A stretch of DNA of 64,000 nt from a virus: the IMG/VR virus record IMGVR_UViG_3300044213_000051, positions 1 through 64,000 of that record. One strand, written 5' to 3'. Shown piece after piece: positions 1 to 57,923 of the stretch (positions are counted from its first letter, which is position 1; the number at the start of each line of letters is the position of its first letter). The translations under genes and the position numbers were made by a program. Below the pieces are notes generated by a model. That model did not search any database. It had not been told where the DNA came from and saw nothing but the letters and a program-made list of their open reading frames with translations.

Positions 1-1318
1 CTTCTGGGTGATACTTCAACAGTTCTTCACGACCAAGTTTCTTTTCGCAGTAATCATACCATTCTTGGCTAGTCCACATACCTTCAGAAACACCATTCCA
101 AAGTTTCTTCCACAATTCGTGTTCTTTATTGTTCTTACGATCTTCAACAAACTGGAATCTGCAGTCTTCATACTCTTTAGATCCAAGTTCAAGCATCTTT
201 TCGCGCAAGTAGCAAACAAGAGAGATACGCTCAGCGTCACCAACACATTCAATCTGTGTATTACCGTGAATAACTTCGTGATTGTTAATCAACAACAAGT
301 CACCTGGACGAACGTTGACAGCAACACGATACTCAGGTGCCACCAAATAGCAACCAGTATAGTTACCATTGTTAGACAATGTTAACAGATTAGACAAACC
401 ATTAGAAAAGTCACCAGCGTCACGGTGGCAAGCTGTACGGAAAGATTTGTTAACAGTAACAGTGGTAAATGGTGTTCCAGGAACAACAAATGCTGGGTCA
501 ATTTTACTTACAGCTTCCATCTGATTGTTATAACGCCAAGGAAGCAATTCCTTAAAACCCTTAGCCAGAGTTTGTAAGAAAGGATATGCCATAGCAAACT
601 TTTCAGGATTCTTGGCAGTAAAAGCAGTTGCTCTACCATAAGGAATGCGAGGGTAACGATCAAACCAACCAGCGATTCCAGAGAATACAGAGTTAGCGTA
701 TGTAGTTGCGCAAACTAAATTGTCATCAACGAACTTACCTGCTTCTTGCTGTTTATCAAGTGGAAGTTTGCGTGTTTCTTCAACCCAAGCATCAAAGTCG
801 AAATCGTTTTCTTTTGTTCTCTCAATAGACCAAACATTGTTACGATTAGAAACAACATCTTTTGCTACAGCATACTTCTTTTTAATTTCTTCAACAGGGT
901 CGTCTGCGATACCAGCCAAACCTGCACGTGGATTCTTGAAGTATTCAATAATCTCAGTTTGATAAGCAGTCACCCATTCACGATTACCCAGCTTTTCAGC
1001 ACGTGGACCAGCTGCAGCTCCACGATTTTGAGTTTCAGTTGCTGCGTCTCGTAAACCAGCATATGCTTGGTCTTGTTGTTCTTTGGTGAAGAAGTTCTTG
1101 CGGAACTTAAACACGATGCGACGTTCATCCATTCCATGAGAACAAGATGAACAATCTTTTGGAACATCACACGCAGCTTGAGTCGCCAGATCGCAATCTG
1201 GTGGCGCATAAACATCATAATCTTCTTCAATAAGCAAGTCATAGTCAGCTTCGGTTGGAAACTGTCCAATCATATGCTCCATATCAAGTTTTCTATCAGC
1301 AACTAAAACCTTTACCAT
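1..1318 (-). CDS. TET/JBP-family 2-oxoglutarate/Fe(II) dioxygenase, 3' end outside window
   Basis: An open frame of 439 codons starts at the ATG at 1318-1316 and continues off the left edge without a stop. The metal/2OG set is visible as H298-x-D300 (in CHRDAGD), H351 (VIHGN) and R364 (ERISL), the layout of the TET/JBP family that oxidises methyl groups of thymine or 5-methylcytosine in DNA. The N-terminal part has a Cys cluster (residues about 41-60, with CSSC) that may bind metal. It is the last gene of the thioredoxin-uvsX-gp41 unit, 9 bases after the helicase stop. A role in making hydroxymethylated or further modified phage DNA is an inference; substrate base and any downstream glycosyltransferase are not visible here. 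Confidence 0.75.
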   Translation of the reverse strand, partial: MVKVLVADRKLDMEHMIGQFPTEADYDLLIEEDYDVYAPPDCDLATQAACDVPKDCSSCSHGMDERRIVFKFRKNFFTKEQQDQAYAGLRDAATETQNRGAAAGPRAEKLGNREWVTAYQTEIIEYFKNPRAGLAGIADDPVEEIKKKYAVAKDVVSNRNNVWSIERTKENDFDFDAWVEETRKLPLDKQQEAGKFVDDNLVCATTYANSVFSGIAGWFDRYPRIPYGRATAFTAKNPEKFAMAYPFLQTLAKGFKELLPWRYNNQMEAVSKIDPAFVVPGTPFTTVTVNKSFRTACHRDAGDFSNGLSNLLTLSNNGNYTGCYLVAPEYRVAVNVRPGDLLLINNHEVIHGNTQIECVGDAERISLVCYLREKMLELGSKEYEDCRFQFVEDRKNNKEHELWKKLWNGVSEGMWTSQEWYDYCEKKLGREELLKYHPE

Positions 1319-1327
1319 TTCATTCTC

Positions 1328-2722
1328 CTAAAACTTAAATCCACTAAATTGATCTTCATTATGTATTCGTTTTCCAAAATCACTTTTGTCGAATAGTGGC
1401 TTATCGTCATTCTTACCTGCGTCAGATAAACCTGTTTGAGCAGAAACTTCAACATCATATAGTTTCATCTTAGCTCTATCAATACCAATAACGAATCGTT
1501 TAAAGTAGTTCGGGTCACTATAACGATTCTTCAACTGCTTAACAATAATCTGATTTAACTGCTCTAATTCTTCATTACTAACCAACGCAAACATAAAGTC
1601 GGCTGTTGCTGGAAGACCAAATGACTCAGAAGTATCTTCAAGTCCTGGATCTGAGTTTGTAAAACCAGATCGAGTAGTTTGAGTTGCTGATACAATAGGA
1701 ACATTATACTCAACAGCCAAACCACGTAGTTCTTCAGCGATAGCCTTAATATATGTATAAGAGTTTACAGAAGCTCCCATTTTCATACGTTGACTTGCGC
1801 AAATATTCAGATAATCAATGAAGATAATATCAGGAAGAAATTCACGCTTCATCTTCAACTCTTCAAGCAACGCACGGAAGTGACCCGCATGAGCAGAAGC
1901 AGTTGGATATTCTTTAACGATCAACTTACCTTGCGTTTTCTTTGAGATCTTTTCAAGACGAGAATCAAAAATATCTTTATCAATAACCTTTAACTCGTCC
2001 ATGGTAAGATTTAATAAGTTCGCATCAATACGCTCAGCGATTCTTTCTTCAGCCATTTCCATAGTCACATAGAGAACATTCTTACCCTGCATTAAAGTTG
2101 AAGCTGCCACGTGACACATAAACAAAGACTTACCAACACCAGTACCTGCCAAAGCAATGTTCAAAGTTTTCTTCGAGAGTCCACCTTTGGTAATTTTGTT
2201 GAACATTTCCAAGTCGAAAGCCAGCTTCTCTTCAATCCTGTGATAAAAATCGTAACGAGCATCAGCATCCTGAAGATAGTCATGACCAACGTGATTATCG
2301 AAACAAACGCCAAGTGCTTCAGAGAGAATAGATGGGATAGCATCTTTCTGGTAGTTTTTATCTCGTCCCTCAGCAATTTTAATTGATTTAAGAATCGCAT
2401 TATATACAGCCCTATCTTTACAGAAGTTTTCTGTTTCGCTTAGCAACCATTCTTGATTCTTTTCTGTGTGTGTAAGTTCTTTAACATACTGCTCATATTC
2501 GGGAACTTCTTTATCAGTTAGCCCTGTTAAATTACCAACCTCAATAGATAGAATATCTTGAGAAGCTGGCTTGTTGTATTTTTCAAAGAATCCAAGTAAC
2601 AAGGAAGCAATTGCTGCTTCCTTTCTGTCAGTAAAATATTCAGTCTTTAAATGTGGAACTACCTTACGACAATATTCCTCATTGTGAATCAGGTTCGATA
2701 GGATCGCCTGTTCTATTCTCAT
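1328..2722 (-). CDS. 41: Replicative DNA helicase, T4 gp41-like (DnaB family)
   Basis: Hexameric 5'-3' replicative helicase that unwinds the fork with the gp43 holoenzyme and primase. The protein has a DnaB-like N-terminal domain followed by a RecA-like motor with Walker A GTGVGKS and a Walker B region (IIFIDYLN). A longer frame begins at a GTG at 2731, but the ATG at 2722 has an AGGTGG Shine-Dalgarno 5 bases upstream and aligns better with T4 gp41, so 464 residues is preferred. The start lies inside the 3' end of the gp40-like gene. Gene order uvsX-40-41 is that of T4. Confidence 0.93.
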   Translation of the reverse strand: MRIEQAILSNLIHNEEYCRKVVPHLKTEYFTDRKEAAIASLLLGFFEKYNKPASQDILSIEVGNLTGLTDKEVPEYEQYVKELTHTEKNQEWLLSETENFCKDRAVYNAILKSIKIAEGRDKNYQKDAIPSILSEALGVCFDNHVGHDYLQDADARYDFYHRIEEKLAFDLEMFNKITKGGLSKKTLNIALAGTGVGKSLFMCHVAASTLMQGKNVLYVTMEMAEERIAERIDANLLNLTMDELKVIDKDIFDSRLEKISKKTQGKLIVKEYPTASAHAGHFRALLEELKMKREFLPDIIFIDYLNICASQRMKMGASVNSYTYIKAIAEELRGLAVEYNVPIVSATQTTRSGFTNSDPGLEDTSESFGLPATADFMFALVSNEELEQLNQIIVKQLKNRYSDPNYFKRFVIGIDRAKMKLYDVEVSAQTGLSDAGKNDDKPLFDKSDFGKRIHNEDQFSGFKF

Positions 2723-3008
2723 CAACACCACCTGTATAAGTTATTTCATTTTTAATCAATCCATAAGTGATAAACTCTACAAGCATATCACCTAGGTATT
2801 GCTCAAGTTCTTCTTTGATGTAGTCCACACCAGCGTCATCAATAATGTCGTATTCGAAGTGCAGTTTGAGACGATCGCCCTGCTCATCAAAATCAACCTT
2901 TCCATAATTAAAAATTATACCTGAATATGGACTTTCTGTCAACTTTATCGCTTGAACACCATTGCGTTTGTTTTCCAAAACTTTGTGGGGTCTTACAATA
3001 TTATTCAT
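2679..3008 (-). CDS. Small protein between uvsX and gp41; positional equivalent of T4 gp40
   Basis: A 109-residue acidic protein that overlaps the uvsX stop by 8 bases and the helicase start by about 44. In T4 this position holds gene 40, a head-vertex assembly chaperone of similar length (about 114 residues). The central part has SPYSGIIFNYG and the C-terminal half has GLIKNEITYTGG. Homology with gp40 is suggested by position, length and general look, not by a recognised motif, so function is tentative. Translation is probably coupled to UvsX. Confidence 0.7.
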   Translation of the reverse strand: MNNIVRPHKVLENKRNGVQAIKLTESPYSGIIFNYGKVDFDEQGDRLKLHFEYDIIDDAGVDYIKEELEQYLGDMLVEFITYGLIKNEITYTGGVDENRTGDPIEPDSQ

Positions 3009-4071
3009 CTACATCAATCTCTGCAAGTTCAGCATCAATTTCATCATCACTTAGAATAGAATCAGTTCCAACTGAATATTTGTTTTTAACAAAATTAAAG
3101 AAAGATGGTTGTTTAAGAACTGGCAACCAGAAATCTTTTGTATCAGTTTCTTTTAGGCGATACTTCTTCTCATCAATTTCACCTGATTCTTTATCTACCT
3201 TTTGATACCAACCATTGGAAGGTTTGATGACGTGTCCAGATTCGAGTGCGATATCGAGTAAACCAGACCAACGGCTAATACCACCATCAAAAGATACGCT
3301 AACAGGTATCTTAGATTTTTCTTTAACATAACGAGATTTTTCCACATTGATAATAAAGTTATAACCAACAACCTCACTACCCTCTTTTTCTTGTTGTCGT
3401 CCAAGAATGAAGATGTTGTCGGCAGAATAATATGAACCAGTGCCACCACCAACGATGGCTTTAGGGAACATACCAATTTCCATATATGTATGATTCACAA
3501 CAACCATAGGAATATCCTTGATTGTAAGATGTGGAGTTACCATACGGAACAATGACTTCAGCTGTTTAGCACGTGTCATATCAGCAGCAGATTTTTGCTC
3601 TAGAGCATCCTCAACTTCTTTCTTCGAAGCAAGGTTACCAATAGAATCAATGATAATCATAACGTGATCACCACGTTCGATTTGACTAAGTTGATTCATT
3701 GCATCAAACTTCAACTGCTCAACATCGGTAATTGGTGTGTGAATGACACGATCCGATGCGATTCCAAAAGAATCAAAGTAAGATTGTGGTGTACCAAACT
3801 CACTGTCATAGAATAAAATTACACCATCTTCATACTTGTCAAGATATGCCTTAGCCATAAGCAAACTGAAGGCAGTCTTAAAGTGTTTTGATGGACCAGC
3901 CCACATAGTCAGACCTGGAGTTAGACCGCCATCTAGGCGACCAGACAGAGCTACGTTAATTACTGGAATAGAGGTGGGGATCATGTCCTTCTTGGTGAAG
4001 AACTTTGATTGAGAAAGAATTGCTGTATCTTTGATAGTGGAATTCTTTTTTAGTTTTTCTAGTACGCTCAT
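3001..4071 (-). CDS. uvsX: UvsX RecA-like recombinase
   Basis: Forms filaments on single-stranded DNA and drives strand invasion for recombination-dependent replication and repair, loaded by UvsY. The Walker A motif at residues 59-66 is GPSKHFKT, the unusual form found in T4 UvsX, followed by Walker B-like MIIIDSIGNL and an acidic C-terminal tail as in the family. At 356 residues it is close to the usual length (about 390 in T4). It lies 2 bases after the thioredoxin gene and shares its promoter. Confidence 0.95.
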   Translation of the reverse strand: MSVLEKLKKNSTIKDTAILSQSKFFTKKDMIPTSIPVINVALSGRLDGGLTPGLTMWAGPSKHFKTAFSLLMAKAYLDKYEDGVILFYDSEFGTPQSYFDSFGIASDRVIHTPITDVEQLKFDAMNQLSQIERGDHVMIIIDSIGNLASKKEVEDALEQKSAADMTRAKQLKSLFRMVTPHLTIKDIPMVVVNHTYMEIGMFPKAIVGGGTGSYYSADNIFILGRQQEKEGSEVVGYNFIINVEKSRYVKEKSKIPVSVSFDGGISRWSGLLDIALESGHVIKPSNGWYQKVDKESGEIDEKKYRLKETDTKDFWLPVLKQPSFFNFVKNKYSVGTDSILSDDEIDAELAEIDVDE

Positions 4072-4073
4072 AA

Positions 4074-4334
4074 TTATTCACCTTTCACAAAAGAAATAAA
4101 CTCTGCTTCGGACATGTATCCAATTTTTCTTGAGATTTCTTTGTCGTCATCATCAACGATAACCAAAGTTGGAACACCTCGGACGCCCATTTGTTGGGTC
4201 ATGAAAAGGTTTTCATCAATGTTTACATCTTCGACTGGGATATCAATTTTATCTTTCGCATCTTCTACAACACGAGCAAGCATCTTGCAAGGTTGGCACC
4301 AGTCAGCATAAAATTTTAGAACTCGTTTAGCCAT
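4074..4334 (-). CDS. Thioredoxin
   Basis: An 86-residue thioredoxin-fold protein with the redox motif WCQPC near the N-terminus and the cis-proline segment GVPTLVIV, so both functional halves of the fold are present. It is shorter than bacterial TrxA (about 108 residues) and has Gln where TrxA has Gly (WCGPC), which suggests a different redox potential or partner. First gene behind the promoter at 4356-4384 and placed directly ahead of uvsX. Likely roles are reduction of ribonucleotide reductase or another phage enzyme; the sequence does not identify the client. Confidence 0.93.
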   Translation of the reverse strand: MAKRVLKFYADWCQPCKMLARVVEDAKDKIDIPVEDVNIDENLFMTQQMGVRGVPTLVIVDDDDKEISRKIGYMSEAEFISFVKGE

Positions 4335-4390: not shown

Positions 4391-4942
4391 TTACGGATTT
4401 TTCTTGTGGTGAGGAACGTCAAATACAAAGGTTATGCGCACGCAGTCGCCAATATTCTCTGTACCATGTGGTAATTTATTGTTGAACCAAAGTAGTGTTC
4501 CTGGCTCCACAATAACAGATTCATCACCTACCGTATACTTATAAGTGCCCTGTATTGACAAATGATAACGATCTTTTGTTTGGTAGTAAGACCCAACGTC
4601 AATGTGAGTTCCAACTTTACCACCTACAGGTAAAGATAAAAATCCACATCGACGGAATGAGTGAAAGTGTCTTGTTAGAAATCCAACAATTTCTGTGTGA
4701 TTGTAAAATGCTTTAGTTGGCATACACAATTCAGTGTCGCCAACATACTCCTCTGGTTTTGTTACGCCACCAATAACTAATTGAAGAACGCCAGCATCGA
4801 TAGAGGGAAACCCATGTTCATCGTGGACATTTTTAATTCCCTCGATGTTCTTTTGAGCACCCCAATCGTCTTTATGTTCTTTCAACTGTTTTAGGTAACG
4901 TGAAACATTGATTCCAGTTTTAATAATTCTAATGTTATCCAA
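4391..4942 (-). CDS. Aspartyl/asparaginyl beta-hydroxylase-like 2OG oxygenase
   Basis: Cupin-fold iron/2-oxoglutarate oxygenase of the Asp/Asn beta-hydroxylase family. Counting from the TTG at 4942, H113-x-D115 (in THID), H159 (LPHGT) and R169 (VRITF) form the metal and 2OG site, and the sequence between them (LSIQGTYKY...EPGTLLWF) is typical. The frame is open to a TTG at 4993, but the TTG at 4942 has GGAG 7 bases upstream and overlaps the polymerase stop by 8 bases, so the 183-residue form is preferred. Last gene of the polymerase unit. The target is unknown; Asn residues in the Cys-Asn repeat protein at 60833-61204 are one speculative option. Confidence 0.82.
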   Translation of the reverse strand: MDNIRIIKTGINVSRYLKQLKEHKDDWGAQKNIEGIKNVHDEHGFPSIDAGVLQLVIGGVTKPEEYVGDTELCMPTKAFYNHTEIVGFLTRHFHSFRRCGFLSLPVGGKVGTHIDVGSYYQTKDRYHLSIQGTYKYTVGDESVIVEPGTLLWFNNKLPHGTENIGDCVRITFVFDVPHHKKNP

Positions 4943-7424
4943 AGAAATTCTCCAAGGATGATTGTTCTTCTGTCTTCCAACCCAAAGGTTCAATTACAGT
5001 TTGCAGAGCATCAAGGAATGTCTTCTTAAACTGTAAATCATAATCAATAAAGTCGTGTAACCCAAATTCCTTCGGTAACTTTTGAGGAAACGCAACTACG
5101 TCCTCGTTAAATGGATTTGGTTTCTTGACATACACAAACTTAATCTTCTCACCCTCTTTGATAGGTTGGTATCGTTTTTCGAGTCCAAGACGTTTCAAGT
5201 GATGGTTGAATAACAAAGAACCTCGAACGTGAATAGGTGTTCCTTTCGCATAGATCGGAGAACCAGCATAAGTCTTCAGACCATTCACGCCACGTGGGAA
5301 AGCAATATCTTCAACGGACATCTGATTGAATTCTTTTTGAAACTCTAACACATATGTATGCAGAATCTTTTCATCACCTGCCAGAATAACATCCAGAGAA
5401 TCTTTCAACTTATCACGGATAACTGCAGGTGTTGAAGACTTAACCATCTCCAGACCCATCACCTTGAGTTTTGGTTTGGCATATTGAACACCCTCAGAGT
5501 TGTGTACGTTCAGAACATAACGCTTCTTCGCAGTCCAGATACCCTTGTCGGCAAGAACCTCACGCTTCATAATCATCTTCTGACTATAAGCATTCATATA
5601 TTCGGCAAGTTCTTGATAACCTTTATCAATGAATGGTTGGAATACATCCTCGCAAATCTTGTCCATAAATTTGATCTTCTGTTCGTCAGTCTTACCTGCG
5701 CAAACAGATTCAACTAACTTCTCGAGAGTCAAATAAATTGAGTCGGTGTCAATCGCGATAACAAAGTCAAGACCTTCTGTCTTCAGAGTTTTGTTTAGGA
5801 ATGCGTTTAGTTTATTCGCCATCCAACGAATCGACAACTGACCAGAAGTAGTAATTCCCTCAGCCATACGAATATCAAAGTAACGGAAATATTGGTTACC
5901 CATCGCACCATAAGCAGAGTTCAACGCAATCTTCATTGCCATCTGAAGGTTATTCAGACGAGAGATCTCTTTCAACAGATGCTTTTGCGACTTGTCGTTC
6001 TGATATTCCTGCTCAACTTTCAACATCTGCTTCTTAAACTTGCTTCGGTTGGCGTACATCTGTTCCATCAACTCAGGCATAAAACCTTTGACGTCTTTGC
6101 GATAACACCATCCATTGGCAGTAAGAGACAGATCCCTACGTTTACAATATGAAGTATCTACTTCTTGGTTGAGTAACTTGTCAACAGAAACAGACAACTT
6201 CTCACTGGTCAAAGTTTCAGGACTGATGTTATATTGCATAATCAAGTGCGGATATAGACTGTTCAAGTCGAAAGAAGCAACCCACTTATGCAATCCAATC
6301 AATGGATCTTTAACGAACGCACCTTCAAATGCCTCAGATTTAGATGAACCTTTGGTTGAAGGAATTGCGATCTTCTTTTTACGCAAATGATTATAGATGA
6401 TAGCATCCCACATACGAACTTGTGAGAACACATCCTCATAATTAATCTTTGCGTTATACGCCATCGTCAAACACAACTCAATCAAACGCATCTTGTCTTC
6501 GAGACGATCAACAAGTTCAGTATCTTGAATGTTATAGTCAACGAAATCTTGCCAATAGTTGGTATAGAATTCCTTGAAGGTATCTCCAGGGTTTTCTTTC
6601 TTCTTGTCACCAAGTTCTTGCTCGGCGATATAATCGAGACGATATGATTCCTGCTTCTGATAAGTAAACTTCTTATATAAGTCAAGGTAATCTAGCTGTG
6701 CGATACCACCAATATCGTATGTTATTTCTTCGTTACCCATGATGAAGATCTTACGTTCATTGGTAAATCCCCATGGTGAAATTTTAGAAGCCAGTGTTTC
6801 ACCAACCTCACGTTCAAGTCGTTTAATCAAATATGGAATGTCGAACAATCCAGTATTCCAACCTGTGATAACATCAGGATAGTTCTGTTGCCAGAATATC
6901 ATAAACTCTTTTAACAGATGCTGCTCGTCTCGACACAAAACATAGCGAACGTCCTTACGCTTATTCTCATATTCACGTGAACCGAACGTAATAATTTGTT
7001 TTGTTTGGGAATCTTTAATTGTGATAAGAAGAACTTCTTCGTTGGCAGTTTTCAAATCTGGGAAACCAGATTCAACTGCCGTCTCAATATCAAGTGAGAA
7101 TACACGGATCTTTTCCATATCGAAACGAATATCGCTTTCGAATGTGTCCGAGATATATTGAGAAACGTAATTAGTATTACCATACACGCTGAATCCCTGA
7201 ACGTCTTTATATCGTTCAACAAAGTCACGTGTTTCTTTTATACTTCCTGGCTTCACCTCGTCAACAACAGAACCATCAAGTGTGCGCCACTCGCTTTCTT
7301 CTTTGTTAGAAGTTACGTATAGAGTTGGAAAGAATTCTATTTTGCGTTGATAAGGTTTACCATTTTCAATTCCCCTAACAAGCATACGATTACCGTAGGG
7401 AAATACATTGGTGTAAAAATTCAT
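4935..7424 (-). CDS. 43: Family B DNA polymerase, T4 gp43-like
   Basis: Replicative polymerase with proofreading exonuclease, 829 residues (T4 gp43 is 898). The exonuclease I motif has D112 and E114 in SLDIETAVE, the same residue numbers as in T4. Polymerase motif A is DLNSLYPH (about residue 387), motif B is KIALNSAYGAMGN and motif C is DTDSIYL (about residue 558). The gene is uninterrupted, with no intron, intein or split. DexA lies 3 bases upstream and the Asp/Asn hydroxylase overlaps its stop. The C-terminal residues LENFFG are probably the clamp-binding peptide for gp45 (inference). Confidence 0.97.
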   Translation of the reverse strand: MNFYTNVFPYGNRMLVRGIENGKPYQRKIEFFPTLYVTSNKEESEWRTLDGSVVDEVKPGSIKETRDFVERYKDVQGFSVYGNTNYVSQYISDTFESDIRFDMEKIRVFSLDIETAVESGFPDLKTANEEVLLITIKDSQTKQIITFGSREYENKRKDVRYVLCRDEQHLLKEFMIFWQQNYPDVITGWNTGLFDIPYLIKRLEREVGETLASKISPWGFTNERKIFIMGNEEITYDIGGIAQLDYLDLYKKFTYQKQESYRLDYIAEQELGDKKKENPGDTFKEFYTNYWQDFVDYNIQDTELVDRLEDKMRLIELCLTMAYNAKINYEDVFSQVRMWDAIIYNHLRKKKIAIPSTKGSSKSEAFEGAFVKDPLIGLHKWVASFDLNSLYPHLIMQYNISPETLTSEKLSVSVDKLLNQEVDTSYCKRRDLSLTANGWCYRKDVKGFMPELMEQMYANRSKFKKQMLKVEQEYQNDKSQKHLLKEISRLNNLQMAMKIALNSAYGAMGNQYFRYFDIRMAEGITTSGQLSIRWMANKLNAFLNKTLKTEGLDFVIAIDTDSIYLTLEKLVESVCAGKTDEQKIKFMDKICEDVFQPFIDKGYQELAEYMNAYSQKMIMKREVLADKGIWTAKKRYVLNVHNSEGVQYAKPKLKVMGLEMVKSSTPAVIRDKLKDSLDVILAGDEKILHTYVLEFQKEFNQMSVEDIAFPRGVNGLKTYAGSPIYAKGTPIHVRGSLLFNHHLKRLGLEKRYQPIKEGEKIKFVYVKKPNPFNEDVVAFPQKLPKEFGLHDFIDYDLQFKKTFLDALQTVIEPLGWKTEEQSSLENFFG

Positions 7425-8003: not shown

Positions 8004-8555
8004 TTATTCAGTGTGGCTGAACCAGCCAGTAACTACATACTTCTCTTTTGTTTGAGAAACTTGACCACGATGAGTAAACGTCCAGTCTGTTGGCCAGATT
8101 AAGGTCAACCCCTTTTTAGCTGGACAAATCCAATTCTGATGTTTGAATTCAGTACCACCATCATCAACATCGTTTAGATAAGTCATAAAGACTAAGTGCC
8201 TTGCTCCAACTCTACCATAACCAGAATGTCGTTCTGTGTGCCAAACTTTAAATCCGCCACCAACAGGATACCATTGAATGCCGATTGATTCAGTTATAGC
8301 CCATCTAGAATTTCCACCTGCTTCTGGATATTCTTCTAGATATTTTTTAACAACACCCATTAATTGAGAATAATAGTCAACCATGAGAGGAACACCCCTC
8401 TCAAGTGGAACATCAATCGATTCTTTTATTTTAGGATCGAATAATGACTTAACATTATCTTTACGTTCTGAATGATATTGAATTATCCTATCACAGATAT
8501 TAATATCGTTCAGAAAATAAGCACCAGCAAATTGTGGTGTTTGAATGTCACCCAT
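8004..8555 (-). CDS. Prolyl-4-hydroxylase-like 2OG-Fe(II) oxygenase
   Basis: A phage-type 2OG oxygenase of 183 residues. The core reads WHTER...LVFMTYLNDVDDGGTEF...WPTDWTFTHRGQ...KYVVTGWF: an H-x-E in place of the usual H-x-D, a second His (THRG) and the C-terminal K/T segment that binds 2OG. The frame can be read from 8675, but those 40 residues overlap the upstream gene; the ATG at 8555 overlaps that gene's stop by only 8 bases. Related proteins are common in T4-like cyanophages. Substrate unknown. Confidence 0.85.
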   Translation of the reverse strand: MGDIQTPQFAGAYFLNDINICDRIIQYHSERKDNVKSLFDPKIKESIDVPLERGVPLMVDYYSQLMGVVKKYLEEYPEAGGNSRWAITESIGIQWYPVGGGFKVWHTERHSGYGRVGARHLVFMTYLNDVDDGGTEFKHQNWICPAKKGLTLIWPTDWTFTHRGQVSQTKEKYVVTGWFSHTE

Positions 8556-8838
8556 TAGGTTGTTGCTCTTTCCAAGTTGTGAAAAATACTTCTTTCTTTT
8601 TATCAGAAGTCCAAGAAGAACAATAATCGTTGTCCTCATCACAAATCGCCAACGCTTCTTCTTCAGAAACGGCACGACGACTTACGATTGTCTCACCCAA
8701 ATGTTCTTGAGAGAATTCTTTGGCTTCGTTCATCGTTACAGTGTCCATCGCCCAATCGATATGTTCCTCAGGAACTTCAACCATGTAACGCATACGAAAC
8801 ATTGAGACACACTCAACCATTACCCACTTATTCGTCAT
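8548..8838 (-). CDS. Conserved phage hypothetical protein (96 aa)
   Basis: Small acidic protein with no recognised domain. Features are a hydrophobic N-terminal strand (RMRYMVEVPEEHIDWA), a helical acidic middle and a C-terminus rich in Glu, Lys and aromatic residues. It overlaps both neighbours by about 10 bases, so it belongs to the tightly packed early operon between ligase and dexA. Function unknown. Confidence 0.7.
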   Translation of the reverse strand: MTNKWVMVECVSMFRMRYMVEVPEEHIDWAMDTVTMNEAKEFSQEHLGETIVSRRAVSEEEALAICDEDNDYCSSWTSDKKKEVFFTTWKEQQPNG

Positions 8839-18162: not shown

Positions 18163-18513
18163 TCACTCCTTTGAATATTTCACATCATGTTCATACAGAA
18201 ACATCAGACAACACATTGCATGCGCCAAATGGTTCTTACCAGTTTCAGGGTCGTTTTGTTCACCCTCTTTCCATGCCCAGAGATGCCTTTGCATTGCGTC
18301 AAAGTATCTACGTTTTGAGTCAGGAACCACCTTCCAATTATCTGGTTCGTATTTCTCCGCACCAAATGTCAGGATTTCTACAGTAGCTTTCAAAGCCAGT
18401 GGCGGGACAAGACCATATTGTAACTTACCACCATCAAACTTTCTACCGCCAGTCGTAGCGTTTTGACTCGCCTTAACCTTATCTTTTACTGTAACAATCG
18501 TATCTTTTGCCAT
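18163..18513 (-). CDS. dATP/dGTP diphosphohydrolase-like protein (DUF5664/MazZ-type)
   Basis: A 116-residue protein with GGRKFDGGKLQYGLVPPLAL, FGAEKYEPDNWK, FDAMQRHLWAWKEGE and NHLAHAMCCLMFLYEHD, the motif order of the phage DUF5664 family (dATP/dGTP diphosphohydrolase N-terminal domain), related to MazG and MazZ. The helical EKY and HLAH motifs would supply metal ligands. In phage S-2L a member supplies precursor for 2-aminoadenine DNA, but the family is widespread and no PurZ is seen here. ATG at 18513 is chosen for its GGAGG at 5-6 bases. Confidence 0.8.
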   Translation of the reverse strand: MAKDTIVTVKDKVKASQNATTGGRKFDGGKLQYGLVPPLALKATVEILTFGAEKYEPDNWKVVPDSKRRYFDAMQRHLWAWKEGEQNDPETGKNHLAHAMCCLMFLYEHDVKYSKE

Positions 18514-18533
18514 TATTCCTCCAGTGAAATGAC

Positions 18534-18560
18534 GAATGGACACTCAGAGAATGTCCATTC
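18534..18560 (-). other. Perfect 9-bp intercistronic hairpin
   Basis: GAATGGACA (18534-18542) and TGTCCATTC (18552-18560) are exact inverted repeats around a 9-base loop, between the helix-turn-helix gene and the diphosphohydrolase gene. There is no U-run, so a processing, stability or attenuation role is more likely than termination. Confidence 0.6.
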
Positions 18561-56975: not shown

Positions 56976-57923
56976 TTAATGTAATTGAATCTTGCTTACA
57001 AGACCTGGAGTGAAGTAGTCAGCAAACTTCTCGTAAACTGCAGAAGTAACTTCTTTGAATTTCTTCTGTTCAGTTTCATCCATGCGAACAACCATAACAC
57101 CCTTTTCTTCACATTCAGCTAGAATGTTTGGAATGTCAGCAACTGATTCACGACGCTCTGCACGAGCAGCGTTGAAAGCAGCAGTAGCCATAATTTCTTG
57201 AGTTTCTTCATCGAACTGAGCCATGAAGTCTTTGTTAACAATAATAGAAGTCAAGAACAAGCTGTGGGCAGTGTCATTAACAACCTTGAAAGACTTATAT
57301 TGGTCAAGTGGGAAAATACGAACGTAAGTAGATTCGCCAGCAGCAATTTCGCCACGATCAGCAAATTCGTTCATTTCTTCTAGAGCGATGTGCTCTTTTG
57401 GTTCTGCTCCAAGCAACTTAAATGTTTCAACAGCAACAGGGCTACGGCTAGTACGAACAGCTTGACCTTTCCAAGCATCTACAGTGTCAGCCTTAAAGTT
57501 AGCTGGAACAACACGATAGCCACCAGAGTAAGTGAAAGACATAGCGTGGATATTACTATTCTTAGAAACACCAGCTAACAACTCAGCACCAACTTCACCT
57601 TCCAAAACAGCGTCAGCATGGGCGTGGTCACGGAATAGGAATGGTAGGTCTAAAGCGTGTAGATCTTTGTTGTAATCAGCCAACCAAGTAGTGTAGATGT
57701 GGCTCATTTCGATAGTGCCATCATCGATCATCTGCATTAGGTCGTTCTTGCTGATTTTCTTGCCATCGTTATACTTAGCTGCATAGTCTGATAAAGAAAG
57801 AACTTCAATGTTAAACATACCATTGGTTTTTTCGTTAACTTCTTTAGCAAAGTGCTCAGCAACTTTCAAAAACAAGCCAATAGGCTCGTGGGCGATAACC
57901 CATTTTACATGTTTTTGTTCCAT
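56976..57923 (-). CDS. DctP-type (TRAP) solute-binding protein without signal peptide
   Basis: 315 residues covering the whole fold: VKWVIAHEPIGLFLKVAEHFAKEVNEKTNG, then DLPFLFRDHAHADAVL, SFTYSGGYRVVPANFKA and the family hallmark GQAVRTSRSPVAVETFKLLGAEP, whose Arg binds the ligand carboxylate. Host DctP proteins are secreted; this one begins MEQKHVKWV with no hydrophobic signal, so it should stay in the cytoplasm or be packaged. No TRAP membrane subunits are nearby. Preceded by a late box at 57998-58005. Role unknown: a ligand sensor, metabolite sink or virion part. Confidence 0.85.
   Translation of the reverse strand: MEQKHVKWVIAHEPIGLFLKVAEHFAKEVNEKTNGMFNIEVLSLSDYAAKYNDGKKISKNDLMQMIDDGTIEMSHIYTTWLADYNKDLHALDLPFLFRDHAHADAVLEGEVGAELLAGVSKNSNIHAMSFTYSGGYRVVPANFKADTVDAWKGQAVRTSRSPVAVETFKLLGAEPKEHIALEEMNEFADRGEIAAGESTYVRIFPLDQYKSFKVVNDTAHSLFLTSIIVNKDFMAQFDEETQEIMATAAFNAARAERRESVADIPNILAECEEKGVMVVRMDETEQKKFKEVTSAVYEKFADYFTPGLVSKIQLH

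Follow-up and report, generated by a model that had tools for sequence, protein, structure and literature searches.

The DNA analyzed here, hereafter the window, comprises bases 1–64000 of an 87,217 bp virus record (IMG/VR IMGVR_UViG_3300044213_000051). Its start coincides with the contig end (base 1), to the left of which no sequence exists, and a comparison of the two ends of the 87,217-bp contig found no overlap between them. An open reading frame of 439 codons without a stop codon (minus strand, 1318..2) occupies this end and is truncated by it. Given that full-length relatives have about 449 aa, approximately 10 C-terminal residues, the stop codon and the genes that follow are located beyond the contig end.

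This frame (2–1318, minus strand) encodes a TET/JBP-family Fe(II)/2-oxoglutarate (2OG) dioxygenase with an intact active site, in agreement with the preliminary description, which had assigned the family and reported a complete H-x-D...H...R set within the visible codons. Pfam Tet_JBP (PF12851) matched residues 224–373 with an E value of 3.9e-29 and a score of 101 bits, about three times the cut-off of 34.9, and phrog_24024, a PHROG family without a function label, spanned the whole protein (E 1.4e-153). In an alignment of 33 sequences with identities down to 33%, the H and D of the HxD metal-binding motif (H298-R299-D300; 419–427, minus strand), the distal metal-binding H351 (266–268, minus strand) and R364 (227–229, minus strand), which we take from family knowledge to be the 2-oxoglutarate-binding residue, were all invariant. 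When the family profile was compared with the PDB, TET2 structures were the only significant solved relatives, and H351 aligned with the TET2 region in this match. With a structure model of moderate confidence (pLDDT 60), all 19 Foldseek matches at E ≤ 0.001 were TET/JBP-family DNA dioxygenases (NgTET1, CcTet, CMD1 and TET2). Kinship with amino-acid hydroxylases, against which the preliminary description had cautioned, was not found in Pfam, profile and Foldseek searches, prolyl hydroxylases appearing in Foldseek only above E 0.1.

The replicative helicase of T4 gp41/DnaB type, which had been named earlier as the neighbor of the dioxygenase gene, was located 9 bp upstream of it (1328–2731, minus strand; DnaB_C E 1.9e-20). 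Further upstream, and all in the same orientation, lie a small conserved ORF (2679–3008, minus strand), whose family occupied rank −2 in 63 related loci, the UvsX recombinase (3001–4071, minus strand; T4_UVSX_C E 7.7e-17), a thioredoxin (4074–4334, minus strand; PF00085 E 9.1e-17) and a family B DNA polymerase (4935–7424, minus strand; DNA_pol_B E 4.9e-28). The TET gene is thus set in a T4-type replication operon, and the virus is T4-like and infects bacteria. A second, unrelated 2OG-Fe(II) oxygenase gene was found between the polymerase and ligase genes (8004–8675, minus strand; PF13640 E 7e-8), and small 2OG oxygenases of PF13759 adjoin TET in some relatives (loci L030 and L084). A dATP/dGTP diphosphohydrolase domain (PF18909, E 2.5e-34) is encoded at 18163–18543 on the minus strand, and is also found near TET in Caulobacter phage Cr30; this nucleotide-pool enzyme could be part of another base-modification or pool-control system. 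Among the structural genes of this T4-like phage, a TRAP-type solute-binding protein DctP is encoded (56976–57923, minus strand; PF03480 E 3.1e-41).

A search of IMG/VR obtained 191 related stretches, most of whose records may be incomplete, and 80 of these were fetched together with four isolate loci. In the fetched relatives the gene order was constant as UvsX-gp41-TET followed by a variable slot, and the helicase family was the immediate upstream neighbor of TET in 80 of 82 loci (fetched IMG/VR and isolates). Downstream of TET, recurring sets of genes were found on the TET strand in the fetched loci, and the slot was occupied by one of three mutually exclusive cassettes, designated A, B and C.

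Cassette A encodes a class II glutamine amidotransferase (PF13522), a GNAT protein, an amino acid:DNA transferase (ADDT; PF18724 "Amino acid:DNA transferase", E 1.5e-20) and a P-loop nucleotide kinase (PF18751, E 2.8e-11), with variants that carry either an extra radical SAM protein or a weak amidoligase-like protein plus GNAT. In locus L047 (12870–16354), as in some relatives, radical SAM/B12-binding proteins are inserted beside the amino acid:DNA transferase. Cassette B encodes a GT4-type glycosyltransferase (PF00534 E 2.1e-9), with or without a cytidylyltransferase. In the cassette B of the focal clade, TET and the glycosyltransferase are separated by a cytidylyltransferase-like protein with kinship to solved glycerol-3-phosphate cytidylyltransferases; in one group of relatives a conserved protein of about 280 aa is found between these two genes (L141 3987–4835, L157 4163–4996 and L172 4128–4988). 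For the GT4-type protein, no solved relative was detectable by sequence. Cassette C encodes a 335-aa unannotated protein; behind it, most loci encode a 150-aa protein in which we read a putative HAD-like DxDG motif. The 335-aa protein had no Pfam or PHROG match and no significant PDB sequence match, and profile comparison found no link between it and the GT4-type protein. Its model (pLDDT 83), however, matched T4 beta-glucosyltransferase best among PDB structures (1bgu, E 3.5e-9, TM 0.66) at 12% sequence identity, with T4 alpha-glucosyltransferase also among the structure matches. The predicted structure therefore assigns the 335-aa protein to the T4 beta-glucosyltransferase (BGT) fold.

A fourth arrangement was seen in isolates, in which PF20691, the "TET-Associated Glycosyltransferase" (TAGT), is encoded near TET: two genes before it in Stenotrophomonas phage DLP6, whose TET orthologue is 44% identical, and directly after it in Synechococcus phage S-CBWM1. 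TAGT was found in isolates only and in none of the metagenomic relatives searched. In Cr30, TET is accompanied by ADDT, directly after which come a weak TAGT-like glycosyltransferase gene and a myo-inositol-1-phosphate synthase gene (L004, 24238–26474), a combination hinting at an inositol-containing DNA modification. Behind TET of phage C48C1 (Kyanoviridae; L006, 16353–18385), two uncharacterized proteins of 344 and 336 aa are encoded, the first without a Pfam match; this pair is possibly a further cassette.

The exclusivity of the cassettes was evaluated in 159 loci in which TET is nearly complete, among which 60 carried A, 51 carried B, 41 carried C, seven carried none of these and not one carried two; part of this set was obtained through searches for cassettes B and C, so the counts do not represent abundances. 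On the TET tree the cassettes changed at least 10 times, compared with 48 times when the labels were shuffled. The cassette B glycosyltransferases had a flat identity of 81–84% even while the accompanying helicases dropped to about 62% (about 40% different), which fits horizontal spread of this gene. Because slow evolution of the protein would also produce a flat identity, the claim of exchange rests on the mutual exclusivity and the tree changes. TET enzymes accompanied by tailoring enzymes are already known, but a fixed hydroxylase with an exchangeable tailoring slot appears to be new.

Modification on the polymer, at either thymine or methylcytosine, had been put forward in the preliminary description together with the observation that no pre-replicative hydroxymethylase was visible. 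Both were supported by the wider search, which for the first pointed to thymine. The thymidylate-synthase family PF00303, which includes the dCMP and dUMP hydroxymethylases, was absent from the entire 87-kb contig and, with the sole exception of Cr30, from the relatives searched. ThyX was present in eight of 12 records, so thymidylate synthesis is conventional. The C5-cytosine methyltransferase family PF00145 matched none of the 24 records, several of which are 146–174 kb, whereas among 14 control genomes it matched 10. The amino acid:DNA transferase and kinase were present in cassette A relatives and in Cr30 (where the kinase match was weak), but searches of the focal contig and of cassette B and C records found neither; these two are enzymes of the 5-hydroxymethyldeoxyuridine (5hmdU) pathway (PMC6449724). 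Since no source of 5-methylcytosine (5mC) is visible and the sister cassettes are of 5hmdU type, thymine in the polymer is considered the likeliest substrate.

The main alternative is that TET oxidizes 5mC to 5-hydroxymethylcytosine (5hmC), which is then glycosylated. Characterized phage TETs of the methyltransferase/TET/glycosyltransferase kind act on 5mC, TET2 is the best PDB match of the sequence profile, and the cassette C protein resembles a 5hmC glucosyltransferase. D303, the position after HxD, is presumably aligned with residues of TET2 and NgTET1 that contact the cytosine amino group, and by this analogy may favor cytosine. The methylated base could be supplied by a host methyltransferase or by one too divergent for PF00145. 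Nevertheless, the lack of PF00145 in all 24 records, and the presence in cassette A of two enzymes familiar from thymidine hypermodification (the amino acid:DNA transferase and the kinase), make oxidation of cytosine unlikely, and thymine was retained as the preferred substrate.

To place the focal phage among the cassette types, its TET was positioned on two trees, in which it was nested within a clade with support of 0.997 and 0.986, respectively. All five fetched members of this enclosing clade, whose TETs are 75–77% identical to that of the window, carry cassette B with the cytidylyltransferase-like protein and the glycosyltransferase, and in this clade a partner glycosyltransferase, as a base J-type pathway would need, is present, the focal flank being beyond the contig end. 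By phylogenetic bracketing, the cytidylyltransferase-like and GT4-type pair most likely follows TET past the contig end. It might instead be that an amino-acid cassette or a BGT-fold cassette stands behind the focal TET, as the switches on the TET tree and the predominance of A or C in most fetched neighbors outside the focal clade would allow. The nested position of the window TET among five cassette B carriers argues against such a switch, which we regard as rather improbable for this phage.

Taken with the GT4-type pair predicted for the focal phage, these results suggest a mechanism in which the phage TET/JBP hydroxylase would use Fe(II) and 2-oxoglutarate to convert thymine in replicated DNA to 5-hydroxymethyluracil (5hmU) by oxidation of its 5-methyl group. 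A nucleotidyltransferase encoded beyond the contig end would activate a sugar or polyol phosphate, and the GT4-type glycosyltransferase would attach the activated sugar or polyol to the new 5hmU hydroxyl. The resulting glycosylated thymine would resemble base J and protect the phage genome against restriction. In related phages the same slot holds the amino acid:DNA transferase and kinase set or the T4 beta-glucosyltransferase-fold enzyme. We consider this whole sequence, from thymine hydroxylation through GT4-type glycosylation to the restriction shield, to be probable. The preliminary description had taken the dioxygenase as a sign of a hypermodified, restriction-resistant genome. Consistent with the first, the genes that immediately follow TET in related loci encode glycosyltransferases, an amino acid:DNA transferase and a kinase; as to the second, a review records that the DNA of DLP6, an isolate with a TET orthologue, resists restriction enzymes (PMC8228603 Table 1). 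With slightly better than even confidence, the mechanism is extended to a large group of T4-like phages, in which one conserved TET with exchanged cassettes would yield post-replicative glycosylated (base-J-like) or aminoacylated thymine, and relatives sharing this hydroxylase would have chemically different genomes.

The usual acceptors of GT4-type enzymes are glycans or lipids, and sequence searches detected no solved relative of the present one; it is conceivable that the pathway ends at 5hmU or 5hmC and that the adjoining glycosyltransferase modifies another target, such as surface sugars. This is made quite improbable by two observations: TET is upstream of the cassette B glycosyltransferase in all 54 loci whose upstream DNA exists, and the glycosyltransferase is swapped one for one with cassettes of DNA-modifying families. 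Action of TET on RNA, protein or a small molecule rather than on phage DNA, which the functional diversity of 2OG dioxygenases and a weak PHROG match labeled queuine tRNA-ribosyltransferase might suggest, can hardly be credited when all significant structure and sequence matches are DNA-base dioxygenases, the regular neighbors of TET are DNA-tailoring families and the gene lies inside a replication operon.

The proposed glycosylated thymine resembles kinetoplastid base J, made by the thymidine hydroxylases JBP1/JBP2 and the J glucosyltransferase, in that a TET/JBP hydroxylase acts on the polymer, thymine is the proposed substrate and a sugar is later placed on 5hmU. It differs in its setting in a phage replication operon, in glycosyltransferases of GT4 type or T4-BGT fold, and in that the phage mark is expected to be abundant and protective, whereas base J is a rare epigenetic mark. 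A sugar on phage thymine in this form was unreported in the literature as of 2019. Phage systems combining a C5-methyltransferase, TET and glycosyltransferase were reportedly described by experiment by Burke et al. in 2021, and share with the present loci a phage TET with adjacent glycosyltransferases acting on the polymer; they differ in their methyltransferase, the counterpart of which was found in none of the 24 records here. Iyer et al. are said to have predicted in 2013 TET/JBP-dependent phage systems in which TET-made hydroxymethyl pyrimidines are the start for further modification, a starting point shared by our proposal; to our knowledge, neither the BGT-fold protein nor a constant slot in the replication operon that is filled by mutually exclusive cassettes was part of that prediction.

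Most described phage thymine hypermodifications begin with a modified nucleotide pool. The thymidine hypermodification of phages M6, ViI and phi W-14, which involves a 5hmdU DNA kinase and transferases, is paralleled by PF18724 and the P-loop kinase of cassette A; in those phages 5hmdU arises in the nucleotide pool, ahead of replication, whereas here TET would make it afterwards, and a homologue of their thymidylate-synthase-family hydroxymethylase was found only in Cr30. The glucosylation of hydroxymethylcytosine in T4 and T6 by beta-GT, alpha-GT and TAGT is similar in that the cassette C model matches T4 beta-glucosyltransferase, despite the low sequence identity, but here there is no dCMP hydroxymethylase and TET would supply the hydroxyl. 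In T-even phages, too, beta-GT and TAGT replace each other at a single syntenic site (PMC13390438).

If the proposal is correct, hydroxylation follows DNA synthesis, as it does for trypanosome base J, and the step after it resembles a plug-in slot, which would explain how related phages can rapidly change their DNA chemistry against restriction and modification-dependent nucleases. The cassettes offer several new candidate DNA-acting transferases, including the putative T4 beta-glucosyltransferase-fold protein that lacks sequence annotation. The family assignment also corrects GenBank entries to TET: three loci (L004 20001–21329, L005 15001–16347 and L007 3729–5165) name the TET/JBP protein "putative SNF2 DNA repair protein", a misannotation that has apparently been carried from record to record.
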